NCBI RefSeq assembly: GCF_000698555.1
Contig: NZ_JFHE01000005.1
Location: forward strand, 186,001-250,000
DNA: 64,000 nucleotides
Direction: 5' to 3'
Origin: Caballeronia grimmiae
GTDB lineage: Bacteria; Pseudomonadota; Gammaproteobacteria; Burkholderiales; Burkholderiaceae
Shown: positions 33,540 through 36,458 of the stretch, one piece after another
How the letters are laid out: each line of letters begins with the position of its first letter
Numbering within the stretch: the stretch's first letter is position 1
Translations under genes and position numbers: made by a program
The notes under the pieces: generated by a model
What the model was told of the DNA's origin: nothing
What the model saw: the letters and a program-made list of their open reading frames with translations, nothing else
The model's database searches: none

Positions 33540-34163
33540 ATGAAACTCGTTATCGGTGACAAGAACCTTTCCTCCTGGTCGATGCGTCCGTGGGTGCTGC
33601 TCAGGCATTTCGGCCTGGCGTTCGACGAGATGCTGATCCGCCTTGACCAGCCCGACACGAAGGCGAAGATTCTCGACGTCACGCCATCGGGCAAGGTGCC
33701 GTGTCTTATCACCGATAACGGCCATGCCGTATGGGAATCGCTCGCGATCATGGAGACGATTGCGGAGAACCATCCGCAGCACGCGATGTGGCCGCGCGAC
33801 GCCGCTGCCCGCGCGCTTGCCCGCAGCATCAGCGCGGAGATGCACGGGGGCTTCGCGGACCTGCGTCAGAACATGCCGATGCAGATCGACATGCACGCGC
33901 CCGGCCTCGGTGCGACGCCGGCGACGCTCTTCGATATCGCGCGCATCGACGCGATGTGGAACGACTGTCTCGCGCGATCGGGCGGGCCGTTCCTGTTCGG
34001 CGAGTTCGGCATCGCGGATGCGATGTACGCGCCGGTCGTCATGCGCTTCAACTCTTACGAGCCTGCGTTGAGCGAGGGATCGCGCGCCTATGCGCGTCGC
34101 GTGACGGCATTGCCGGCGGTGGCTGCGTGGATCGACGATGCGCGCAAGGAAGCCGCGCGATGA
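33540..34163 (+). CDS. Glutathione S-transferase family protein
   Basis: A 207-residue GST. The N-terminal thioredoxin-like half carries SSWSMRPW, which supplies a Ser active-site candidate, and the glutathione-binding GKVPCLITDNG followed by ESLAIMETI. The C-terminal half is all-helical with FGEFGIADAMYAPVV. Substrate unknown. It overlaps cca by ATGA and starts 12 bases after the NDUFA9-like gene, so the three genes form one transcript. Confidence 0.9.
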   Translation: MKLVIGDKNLSSWSMRPWVLLRHFGLAFDEMLIRLDQPDTKAKILDVTPSGKVPCLITDNGHAVWESLAIMETIAENHPQHAMWPRDAAARALARSISAEMHGGFADLRQNMPMQIDMHAPGLGATPATLFDIARIDAMWNDCLARSGGPFLFGEFGIADAMYAPVVMRFNSYEPALSEGSRAYARRVTALPAVAAWIDDARKEAAR

Positions 34164-35395
34164 ATATCTACGCGGTAGGCGGCGCGATTCGTGATGCGCT
34201 GCTCGGCATGCCGGTGATGGATCGCGATTACGTGGTCGTCGGCGCGACGCCCGAGCAGATGGTGGCGCAGGGGTATCGACCGGTCGGGAAGGACTTTCCG
34301 GTGTTCTTGCATCCGCAGACGCACGAGGAATACGCGCTGGCGCGCACGGAGCGCAAGACGGCGGCGGGCTATCACGGATTCCAGTTCTATTATTCGCCGG
34401 ATGTCACGCTCGAAGAGGACCTGGCGCGCCGCGATCTCACGATCAACGCGATGGCGCGCGAAGTCACGCCGGCGGGCGAGCTGACGGGACCGGTGATCGA
34501 TCCGTTCGATGGCCGGGCGGACCTCGAGAACAGGCTTTTCAGGCATGTGGGCGATGCGTTCATCGAGGACCCGGTGCGCATTCTGCGGCTTGCGCGTTTT
34601 GCTGCGCGCTTTGCGGATTTCACCGTCGCGCCGGAGACCGAGGCGTTGATGAAGAGGATGGTCGAGGCCGGCGAAGTGGATGCGCTCGTGCCCGAGCGCG
34701 TGTGGCAGGAAGTGTCGCGCGGCCTGATGGAGAAGAAGCCGTCGCGGATGTTCGAGGTGTTGCGCGGCAGCGGCGCGCTTGCGCGGATTCTTCCGGAGAT
34801 CGATGCGCTTTGGGGCGTGCCGCAGCGTGCGGACTATCATCCGGAGGTCGACACGGGCGTTCACGTGATGATGGTGCTGGACTATGCGGCTTCGCAGGGC
34901 TTCACGTTACCGGTGCGCTTCGCCGCGCTGACGCACGATCTCGGCAAGGCGACGACGCCGGAGGATGTGCTGCCGCGTCATATCGGACATGAGGGGCGCA
35001 GTGTCGATTTGCTGAAGCCATTGTGCGAGCGTTTGCGTGTGCCGAACGAATGCCGCGACCTGGCGATGCTCGTTGCGCGTGAGCATGGGAATATCCATCG
35101 CGTGATGGATATGGGCGCGGCGGCGCTCGTGCGCTTGTTCGAGCGGTCGGATGCTTTGCGTAAACCTGCGCGGTTTGCGGAAGCGTTGCAGGCTTGTCTT
35201 GCGGATATTCGCGGGCGGTTGGGGCTCGAGGCGCAGCCTTATCCGCAGGCTGAGCGGTTGCGGGTGGCACTGGTTGCTGCTCGGGCTGTTGATGCTGGCG
35301 CTGTGGCTTTGCGGTTTGCTTCCGAGCCTTCGCGGATTAAGGATGCGGTGCATGAGGCACGGGTTGCGGCCGTGCAGGACGCTTTGTTTTCTTGA
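34160..35395 (+). CDS. cca: Multifunctional CCA-adding enzyme (tRNA nucleotidyltransferase)
   Basis: A 411-residue enzyme that adds or repairs the 3'-CCA of tRNAs. The class II head domain has GGAIRDALLG and the catalytic carboxylates in MDRDYVVVG, then EDLARRDLTINAMA and EDPVRILRLARFAAR. A C-terminal HD domain (LTHDLGKATTPEDVLPRHIGHE) gives phosphohydrolase/phosphodiesterase activity as in the E. coli enzyme. The start overlaps the GST stop. Codons near the 3' end are less GC-rich, leading into the AT-rich flank of the inverted repeat. Confidence 0.95.
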   Translation: MNIYAVGGAIRDALLGMPVMDRDYVVVGATPEQMVAQGYRPVGKDFPVFLHPQTHEEYALARTERKTAAGYHGFQFYYSPDVTLEEDLARRDLTINAMAREVTPAGELTGPVIDPFDGRADLENRLFRHVGDAFIEDPVRILRLARFAARFADFTVAPETEALMKRMVEAGEVDALVPERVWQEVSRGLMEKKPSRMFEVLRGSGALARILPEIDALWGVPQRADYHPEVDTGVHVMMVLDYAASQGFTLPVRFAALTHDLGKATTPEDVLPRHIGHEGRSVDLLKPLCERLRVPNECRDLAMLVAREHGNIHRVMDMGAAALVRLFERSDALRKPARFAEALQACLADIRGRLGLEAQPYPQAERLRVALVAARAVDAGAVALRFASEPSRIKDAVHEARVAAVQDALFS

Positions 35396-35431
35396 TTGCT
35401 TTTTGTTGAGATTTTTTTTGTTGGTGAGCTT

Positions 35432-35673
35432 TCTTCGTTGAGGTTGTATTCGTGTCGGTCTATTAGCGCGCCCCTCCCCGGGGCGGGGGTCACTTTCTTT
35501 GCCGCTGCAAAGAAAGTAACCAAAGAAAGCAGCTTTTTTTCGAACCGCACGAAGCACAGACTTGTGTGCTCACTTCGTAGAACCTCCGTGGCCCTCAGCT
35601 TGAAAGAGCCTTGAATCACCTTCCGCGCCCACTGACAACTAACGTCCTCCGAGCCCCTTGGCTCGACAACACC
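35432..35673 (+). repeat. Left arm of the long inverted repeat (short-loop form)
   Basis: Here the central stem ACTTTCTTTGC (35492-35502) / GCAAAGAAAGT (35507-35517) closes a four-base CGCT loop. The GC-rich palindrome lies at about 35468-35488 and the GAGCC/GGCTC hairpin at 35651-35664. Confidence 0.85.
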
Positions 35674-35975
35674 AGTGGGGCACCACGCGCATCGCATGTT
35701 CAACGCTGATCGCACTTTGAAATCAAGGGCAGATAACGGGCACGGCGGCACGGTCACGCAGAAATCTCCGAAAGCAGAAATCGCCTCGCGGGGTCCTTCA
35801 AGGTCGAGCGCGACTCAGCCGGTCAGCCGCGCAGTAGCCGCTCATCAGGAGCGTCGCGAGACAGAAGGGACTGAAATCAGAAATTAAGCGGAGCGCGGGC
35901 GACGGAAGCCTGAGTAAAGTGGCTTCGAGTAATCGGTCAGCCCTTAAGTTGTAGCGTGGCGCTGTACATACAGTC

Positions 35976-36257
35976 GGTGTTGACGAGCCAAGGGGCTCGG
36001 AGGACGTTAGTTATCAGCGGGCGTGGAAGGTGATTCAAGGCTCTTTCAAGCTGAGTGCCACCGATGTTCTACGAAGTGACCACACGACTTAGTGCATCGT
36101 GCGGTTCGAAAAAAAGCTGCTTTCTTTGGTTACTTTCTTTGCATGGGACCAGAGTAAGACGCTAAAGCGCCAACTCTGGTCGACAGCAAAGAAAGTGACC
36201 CCCGCCCCGGGGAGGGGCGCACTAATAGACCGACACGAATACAAGCTCAACGAAAAA
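35976..36257 (-). repeat. Right arm of the long inverted repeat (long-loop form)
   Basis: This arm matches the left one in reverse orientation. Its central stem (36132-36142 with 36186-36196) holds a 43-base loop in place of CGCT. That loop contains its own stem, GACCAGAGT (36147-36155) with ACTCTGGTC (36173-36181), and a smaller inner one, so the arm can fold into a nested cruciform. Confidence 0.85.
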
Positions 36258-36263
36258 AGACCC

Positions 36264-36458
36264 CTAAAGCGCCCGAGCAATCAAAGAAAGCAAAATAGAG
36301 AGCAACAGCGTCGACATGAAGGGAAACGAATACTCCCGCCCGAAGAGGCGCAAATTAAAATCCCCGGGCAACCGCCCGATGCCAAGCTTCCTGAGCCACG
36401 GCCAGCACCCCGAAAGCACGACAAGTGCGATAAAAGTAGTGAGTACCCAGCGAATCAT
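36264..36458 (-). CDS. DUF2905 family small membrane protein
   Basis: A 64-residue protein with two hydrophobic segments separated by the conserved-looking LGIGRLPGDFNLRLFGREYSF (the second half of LGKLPGDI-type motifs in this family). Function unknown. The ATG at 36458 gives normal length; the frame is open to 36539 inside the upstream gene. It follows the methyltransferase gene by ten bases and is probably co-transcribed. Confidence 0.85.
   Translation of the reverse strand: MIRWVLTTFIALVVLSGCWPWLRKLGIGRLPGDFNLRLFGREYSFPFMSTLLLSILLSLIARAL

Follow-up and report, generated by a model that had tools for sequence, protein, structure and literature searches.

In the window, that is, the whole stretch of 64,000 nucleotides of Caballeronia grimmiae DNA that was analysed, two convergent genes are separated by a long inverted repeat. 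To the left lies a cca-type nucleotidyltransferase gene (34160-35395, + strand; Pfam poly-A-polymerase/CCA-type domains) and to the right a gene for a 64-residue DUF2905 protein (36264-36458, - strand; Pfam DUF2905), both outside the element. A repeat search places the arms at 35429-35673 and 35976-36259, in inverted orientation around a spacer of 302 nt (35674-35975), with 96% identity in an outer and 92% in an inner layer, which amounts to about 16 mismatches in total. The left arm (+) consists of an outer layer (35429-35502, 74 nt, 96% identical to 36186-36259), with GTGTCGGTCTATTAGC, the CCCCTCCCCGGGG palindrome and the first half of a core hairpin, followed by the second half of this hairpin and the inner layer (35506-35673, 168 nt, 92% identical to 35976-36143). 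The right arm (-) is its inverted match, with inner layer and core half at 35976-36143 and outer layer at 36186-36259. The interiors of the arms are unequal, 3 nt on the left versus 42 nt on the right; repeat and palindrome analysis defines the latter as an insert (36144-36185, -) at the tip of the core hairpin that is itself hairpin-capable. The family core, GCAAAGAAAGTAACCAAAGAAAGC, is found at 35507-35530 (+; G000:C5:221507-221530) in the left, short-loop arm and at 36119-36142 (-; G000:C5:222119-222142) in the right arm. The calculated fold energy of the single strand 35425-36265 is -562 kcal/mol, while 20 shuffled sequences have a mean of -289 (sd 6.4; z -42.6), so the palindrome is not due to chance. 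The inverted repeat that had been noticed in the first-pass annotation is therefore real, and its coordinates, arm sizes and number of mismatches are nearly as described there. The spacer had been said to be devoid of a credible gene: ORFs of at least 60 codons overlap it, and a codon-usage gene caller, which also missed the DUF2905 gene, keeps none of them. A coding spacer was rejected on this ground, with a caller that can miss genes as small as DUF2905.

The focal copy belongs to a family. With one focal arm as query, 53 matching pieces were retrieved from the own genome (G000), in which 17 regions were read with the gene caller trained on 75 ORFs. They comprise 14 inverted pairs, in some of which one arm is degraded, two single arms and one double in the same direction, besides four short hairpins; other weak matches to the outer motif occur beyond the 17 regions. 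The common plan is a quasi-palindrome of about 0.5-0.85 kb, with two arms that each carry one conserved core (TTACTTTCTTTGC-loop-GCAAAGAAAGTAACCAAAGAAAGC) and a variable spacer. The arms are, as had been noticed, nested palindromes, built of the outer layer (GTGTCGGTCTATTAGC), the CCCCTCCCCGGGG palindrome, the core hairpin and the inner layer. A short loop in one arm is combined with a hairpin-forming insert in the other in 9 of the 14 pairs. The focal left arm is 88-95% identical to 8 of 10 short-loop arms, and 85 and 87% identical to the other two. With up to 3 mismatches allowed, the motif of the long-loop insert occurs at 22 genomic sites, and the insert hairpin is also seen as a tandem of about 50 bp away from arms (G000:C18:79371-79493 and G000:C28:61099-61170). 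Comparison of the 14 spacers, each with 30 nt of arm per side, revealed a common sequence in six, mostly at 68-80% identity and in either orientation. In another genome, the outer layer is present threefold on each side of one element, symmetrically (G047:C2:707295-708479).

The idea of a dispersed element had been raised from the focal copy, with the reservation that an arm found only once or twice in the genome would speak against it. With 14 pairs in the own genome and an element match (E 0.001) in 48 of 58 Caballeronia genomes, own included, this idea is borne out. The exact 24-mer core reaches up to 33+41 occurrences per genome, while a reversed control gave none. In a sample of the family it is present in 12 of 150 genomes and 2 of 25 genera; a looser core pattern is present in 8 of 398 genomes and 8 of 212 genera of a sample of the phylum, own genome included. 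Among the matches listed, the core at 7 of 17 loci outside Caballeronia lies inside a palindromic stretch of some 500-700 nt with 64-77% identity, namely in Hydrogenophilus, Pseudoxanthomonas (two, both from one MAG), Stenotrophobium, Lysobacter, Marinobacterium and Trinickia; no long palindrome was found at the other 10, two of which lie at an edge. Across genera, little likeness extends beyond the core, as judged by eye. One locus of Xanthomonas maliensis (L044, 6389-7157) has three cores in the same direction, about 315-405 bp apart, and a long palindrome was not found there. Nine plasmid records of 0.67-2.5 Mb, all predicted to be non-mobilizable, contain matches; of three annotated plasmid regions, two have no annotated feature and one has a hypothetical protein over the match. 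A phage origin was rejected after a search of 50,697 phage records (E 1e-5) without a match. Within the open-licence literature, no description of the palindrome family was found beyond the paper on Bp1_Cand684.

Placement relative to genes was derived from a sample of at least 116 stretches with a core, of which 99 loci were used and 17 from other genera left out, together with the 17 own regions; Burkholderia peredens, B. turbans, Ca. B. verschuerenii and Ca. P. kirkii were counted as Caballeronia. After removal of 34 of 117 clusters, because of an edge position or for want of a called neighbour, 83 were kept among the matches listed. The cores are arranged as '+-' in 58 of these, '-' in 11, '+' in 7, '++-' in 5 and '+--' and '++--' in one each; '-+' does not occur. 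Paired cores thus form inverted doublets. Some arms, at L070 and among other singles, stand alone or next to a degraded partner. No called gene lies within any of the 83 clusters among the matches listed; the caller missed the 64-residue DUF2905 gene, hence small genes may be absent from the placement counts. Moreover, loci are common to related species, and the counts are therefore not independent. Among the matches listed, 38 of the 58 pairs lie between codirectional, 18 between convergent and 2 between divergent genes, versus 401, 82 and 79 among 562 pairs of neighbouring genes (p 0.36, 0.0025 and 0.022, respectively, by Fisher's test), that is, convergent sites are enriched and divergent ones avoided. 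The distance from the core has a median of 46 nt to 3' ends (n=74) and 111.5 nt to gene starts (n=42), again among the matches listed. The convergent setting that had been put forward thus holds for the focal copy and as an enrichment, and fails as a rule for the family, 38 of 58 pairs being codirectional; accordingly, an element specific for convergent genes was rejected as a rule.

For the cca-DUF2905 junction, 50 of the 58 genomes were read and 49 are counted, since cca was not found in G020. A full element is present in 11 (G000, G002, G007, G010, G021, G038, G039, G040, G047, G049 and G057), while the gap is at most 28 bp in 20. Short hairpins of 35-137 bp are found in four (G041, G054, G052 and G006), arm remnants with a moved block in one (G048), a contig end after one arm in four (G004, G008, G017 and G019) and other inserts in two (G015 and G051); no state was assigned to seven (G009, G016, G018, G023, G024, G026 and G043). 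The inserts in G015 and G051, of 0.8-1.0 kb and without arms, indicate that the junction accepts other DNA too. A GGATCC word is common to the outer palindromes of both arms, and the G041 hairpin would be the expected product of a deletion between two such words. No target-site duplication was recognised by eye between empty and filled junctions, the flanks of which have strongly diverged. The elements of G038 and G039 have an insertion sequence inside one arm, each with an 8-bp duplication (by eye) within a hairpin stem. All three element-borne insertion sequences examined are of the IS256/Mutator type (PF00872; L340 3717-6515, L341 2340-3736 and the centre of L317). Of 30 genomes read at the flgL-fliR junction, seven have long palindromes (G000, G002, G004, G006, G007, G010 and G021) and four a single arm (G008, G013, G024 and G057).

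The spacers are found in both orientations. At the cca locus, the best spacer alignments are opposite in orientation for G010 versus G002, G057 and G021 and for G049 versus G047 and G038. A larger rearrangement is found in G048, where a block of 10 kb (flgK-flgL-fliR...fliL) occupies the cca-DUF2905 junction and is flanked by arm remnants on either side. In G000 and G047 each border of this block carries an element, one in the ycgR-flgK and the other in the fliL-fliK interval, and at the old site in G048 one full element lies between fliK and ycgR. The distance between cca and fliR is about 40-58 kb in 26 and 20-28 kb in 3 of the 29 other genomes with both genes on one contig, against 5 kb in G048, which indicates that G048 represents the derived state. 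From this we infer that the flagellar block was excised between two copies and integrated into a third.

Do the two arms of a pair change together? In Caballeronia, 41 arms at the cca and fliR loci were compared, the own-genome right arms being left out. Mean identity is 0.845 to the own partner (14 pairs), 0.857 to the other locus in the same genome (22) and 0.687 to the same locus and side in another genome (207). Of the 41 arms, 18 find their closest match within the same genome, in only four cases in their own partner, and 23 find it in another genome. Copies in the same genome are thus alike on average, with no preference for the own partner, and exchange among them has only partial support. 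A local inverted duplication as the origin of the pair (a recent duplication or inversion had been offered earlier) is not supported by these figures.

A clearer signal comes from a second genus, g11, presumed to be Burkholderia on account of the highest scores for a Burkholderia Rfam family (RF02421). The paired locus was examined in 11 of its genomes and is always one pair between the same two genes, which by Pfam encode an AraC-type regulator and a class-III aminotransferase in L314; in the other genomes they were recognised by the look of the sequence. Untrimmed, all 11 genomes give a partner identity of 0.815 versus 0.760. In a trimmed set of nine, restricted to alignment columns 36-300 and without G125 (broken by an insertion sequence) and G143 (short arm), both choices being made after alignment, partners are 0.948 identical, versus 0.881 for the same side and 0.882 for the opposite side across genomes, and none of 20,000 permutations reached the partner value. 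In these nine genomes the partner is the nearest arm for 16 of 18 arms. Minority states common to both arms number 88, against 30.5 (sd 9.7) with shuffled partners; for another 105, the state is confined to a single arm or the two arms carry different ones. In a tree, both arms group together in seven of the nine genomes, six of these forks being starred. Partner differences over 2,034 positions comprise 40 transversions, 35 changes of wobble type with respect to one RNA strand and 30 with respect to the opposite strand. With no bias in wobble direction, selection on one RNA strand was rejected. Transitions and transversions number 65 and 40 between partners versus 900 and 1040 between genomes; this excess of transitions may reflect youth or (compensatory) selection. 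Spacers align for 3 of 15 pairs at this locus, one (G103 versus G191) in opposite orientation. As to cargo, 4 of the 11 genomes (L311, L312, L313 and L314) carry a gene for a Tae4-type T6SS amidase effector (PF14113) in the interval that the arms enclose, and IS256 is present in one.

Taken together, we consider it probable that this is a dispersed, non-coding element of the foldback type, the arms of which are kept symmetric by recombination or template switching. Such an element explains the copies, the sites, the flips, the co-evolving arms and the moved block. The likeness of the arms would be maintained by recombination, gene conversion or template switching during replication rather than by selection for an RNA hairpin, with exchange between arms and perhaps also between copies. 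Deletion through the nested palindromes would leave shorter hairpins behind, and new sites may be gained through some mobilising activity or by recombination. Against this reading, selection for symmetry could likewise hold the arms alike.

A related possibility, which overlaps with the foldback reading, is a non-autonomous transposon, similar to REPINs or MITEs, that is moved by a RAYT or another transposase. The copies are dispersed, form inverted doublets near 3' ends and can be present or absent at the same site, all of which would suit such a transposon. On the other hand, the arms are much longer than REPs as characterized in the available excerpts of PMC3733652, and the target duplication to be looked for at the cca junction was not recognised by eye. 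No mobilising enzyme was identified in a search that covered Y1_Tnp (PF01797) as the sole enzyme family. This domain is encoded in 57 of 58 genomes, mostly as one weak copy and also in Caballeronia genomes free of the element, and 10 of its loci, all in other genomes than the own, were read and show no significant adjoining arm (best E 0.019). Mobilisation by a RAYT was tentatively set aside, Y1_Tnp being present irrespective of the element and without adjoining arms in these loci. The transposon as a whole appears doubtful, although conceivable. A Y1_Tnp-like gene of about 235 codons adjoins a glutamate-synthase-like gene (named from its sequence) in L230, L232 and L234, and in most Caballeronia.

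The first-pass annotation had raised bidirectional terminators, a cruciform or a source of a long hairpin RNA as possible roles of the paired arms. That selection maintains the element as a terminator, or as a structure at mRNA 3' ends, with each arm stopping transcription that arrives from the 3' end facing it, is unlikely. The proximity of the cores to 3' ends, the avoidance of divergent and enrichment of convergent sites among the matches listed and the persistence of short hairpins at 4 of the 49 cca junctions would agree with such a function. The placement near 3' ends, however, fits terminator use and insertion tolerance alike, the latter predicting the same distribution, and the 20 junctions with a gap of at most 28 bp have no room for an element. 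A terminator scan gave four weak sites versus 1.6 +/- 1.2 in shuffled sequences, with no solid T-run straight after a stem; the core hairpin has no conserved T-run on its 3' side (G002, G021), and in the short hairpins of G041 and of own contig C3 the stem is preceded by T-runs and followed by A-runs, the wrong orientation for an intrinsic terminator.

A trans-acting small RNA, as proposed for RF02421 (Bp1_Cand684), is very improbable here. The outer arm does have sequence homology to this family (GTGACC..CCGCCCCG.G.AGGGGCG..GCTAATAGACCG in the alignment to the Rfam model): the focal copy matches at 35408-35499 (-, 38 bits) and 36189-36283 (+, 29.2 bits), both below the gathering score of 44, and another own-genome copy attains 44.6 bits. 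Matches occur in 42 of 150 genomes of the family (35 above the cut-off) and 5 of 25 genera, including all 13 sampled genomes of the presumed Burkholderia. In the available excerpts of PMC3521395, Bp1_Cand684 of B. pseudomallei is validated by RT-PCR, and a trans-acting role is suggested because its neighbours differ; a dispersed element would likewise be expected to have varying neighbours. The model covers only the outer edge of an arm, and inverted pairs hold most of the matches in the presumed-Burkholderia and Caballeronia loci read, with long palindromes around those at L311-L321 and an unpaired single copy at L322 and L323. According to a figure legend in PMC3521395, the copy with the RT-PCR signal has pdhB and lpdA as its neighbours; the flanking genes in two genomes of the presumed Burkholderia, pdhB and lpdA by the look of the sequence, are codirectional, and read-through could therefore give such a signal. 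Furthermore, no promoter-like site was found in 35350-36350, where 0.3 would be expected.

If the foldback reading is extended, it could tentatively be imagined that a selfish class of long palindromes is widespread in Beta- and Gammaproteobacteria, recognisable chiefly from a core of about 45 nt per arm and without a transposase of its own, whose symmetry and homogeneity would be maintained, and whose spread possibly driven, by host replication and recombination. Such palindromes might act as portable recombination sites that move blocks and collect cargo, and RF02421 would then be a fragment of one rather than a small RNA. In bacteria, long palindromes that are nearly perfect are generally regarded as unstable. 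The family analysed here nonetheless persists with many copies in a genome, and at one locus concerted evolution of its arms is seen. Its copies are the likely route for the relocation of one gene block, and there is reason to re-examine RF02421 as a piece of a repeat.

How does this family relate to known systems? MITEs and foldback elements are non-coding, have inverted arms and are present in many copies. The element has the same inverted arms, non-coding interior and high copy number; it differs in that no autonomous partner, transposase (with Y1_Tnp alone surveyed) or target duplication was identified. RF02421 (Bp1_684, Bp1_Cand684_SIPHT) is homologous to part of the outer arm, but is described in the excerpts of PMC3521395 as a small RNA of 114 nt, whereas here it forms the edge of one arm in a long palindrome. 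REPs and REPINs, as far as the excerpts of PMC3116915 and PMC3733652 describe them, are dispersed inverted doublets with a spacer that form hairpins and lie mostly 3' of genes, with singles as remnants. This layout, the dispersal and the placement near gene 3' ends, also of GTAG and CGTC REPs, are common to the element. In contrast, the REP unit is a small palindrome of 20-40 bp with a stem of 5-13 bp (PMC3733652, in part), against arms of 74+168 nt, and, unlike REPINs, the element has no linked RAYT in the 10 loci read. Template switching that turns imperfect into perfect palindromes is discussed in the excerpt of PMC4060949. The intergenic palindromes of Caenorhabditis, which undergo gene conversion from arm to arm and alongside which those of the human Y chromosome are cited (PMC1803023, in part), are situated at paralogous gene pairs, while the element is non-coding, dispersed and bacterial. 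As in these long inverted repeats, its arms co-evolve and its spacer diverges, which makes the family a natural system in which to measure arm-to-arm conversion in bacteria.
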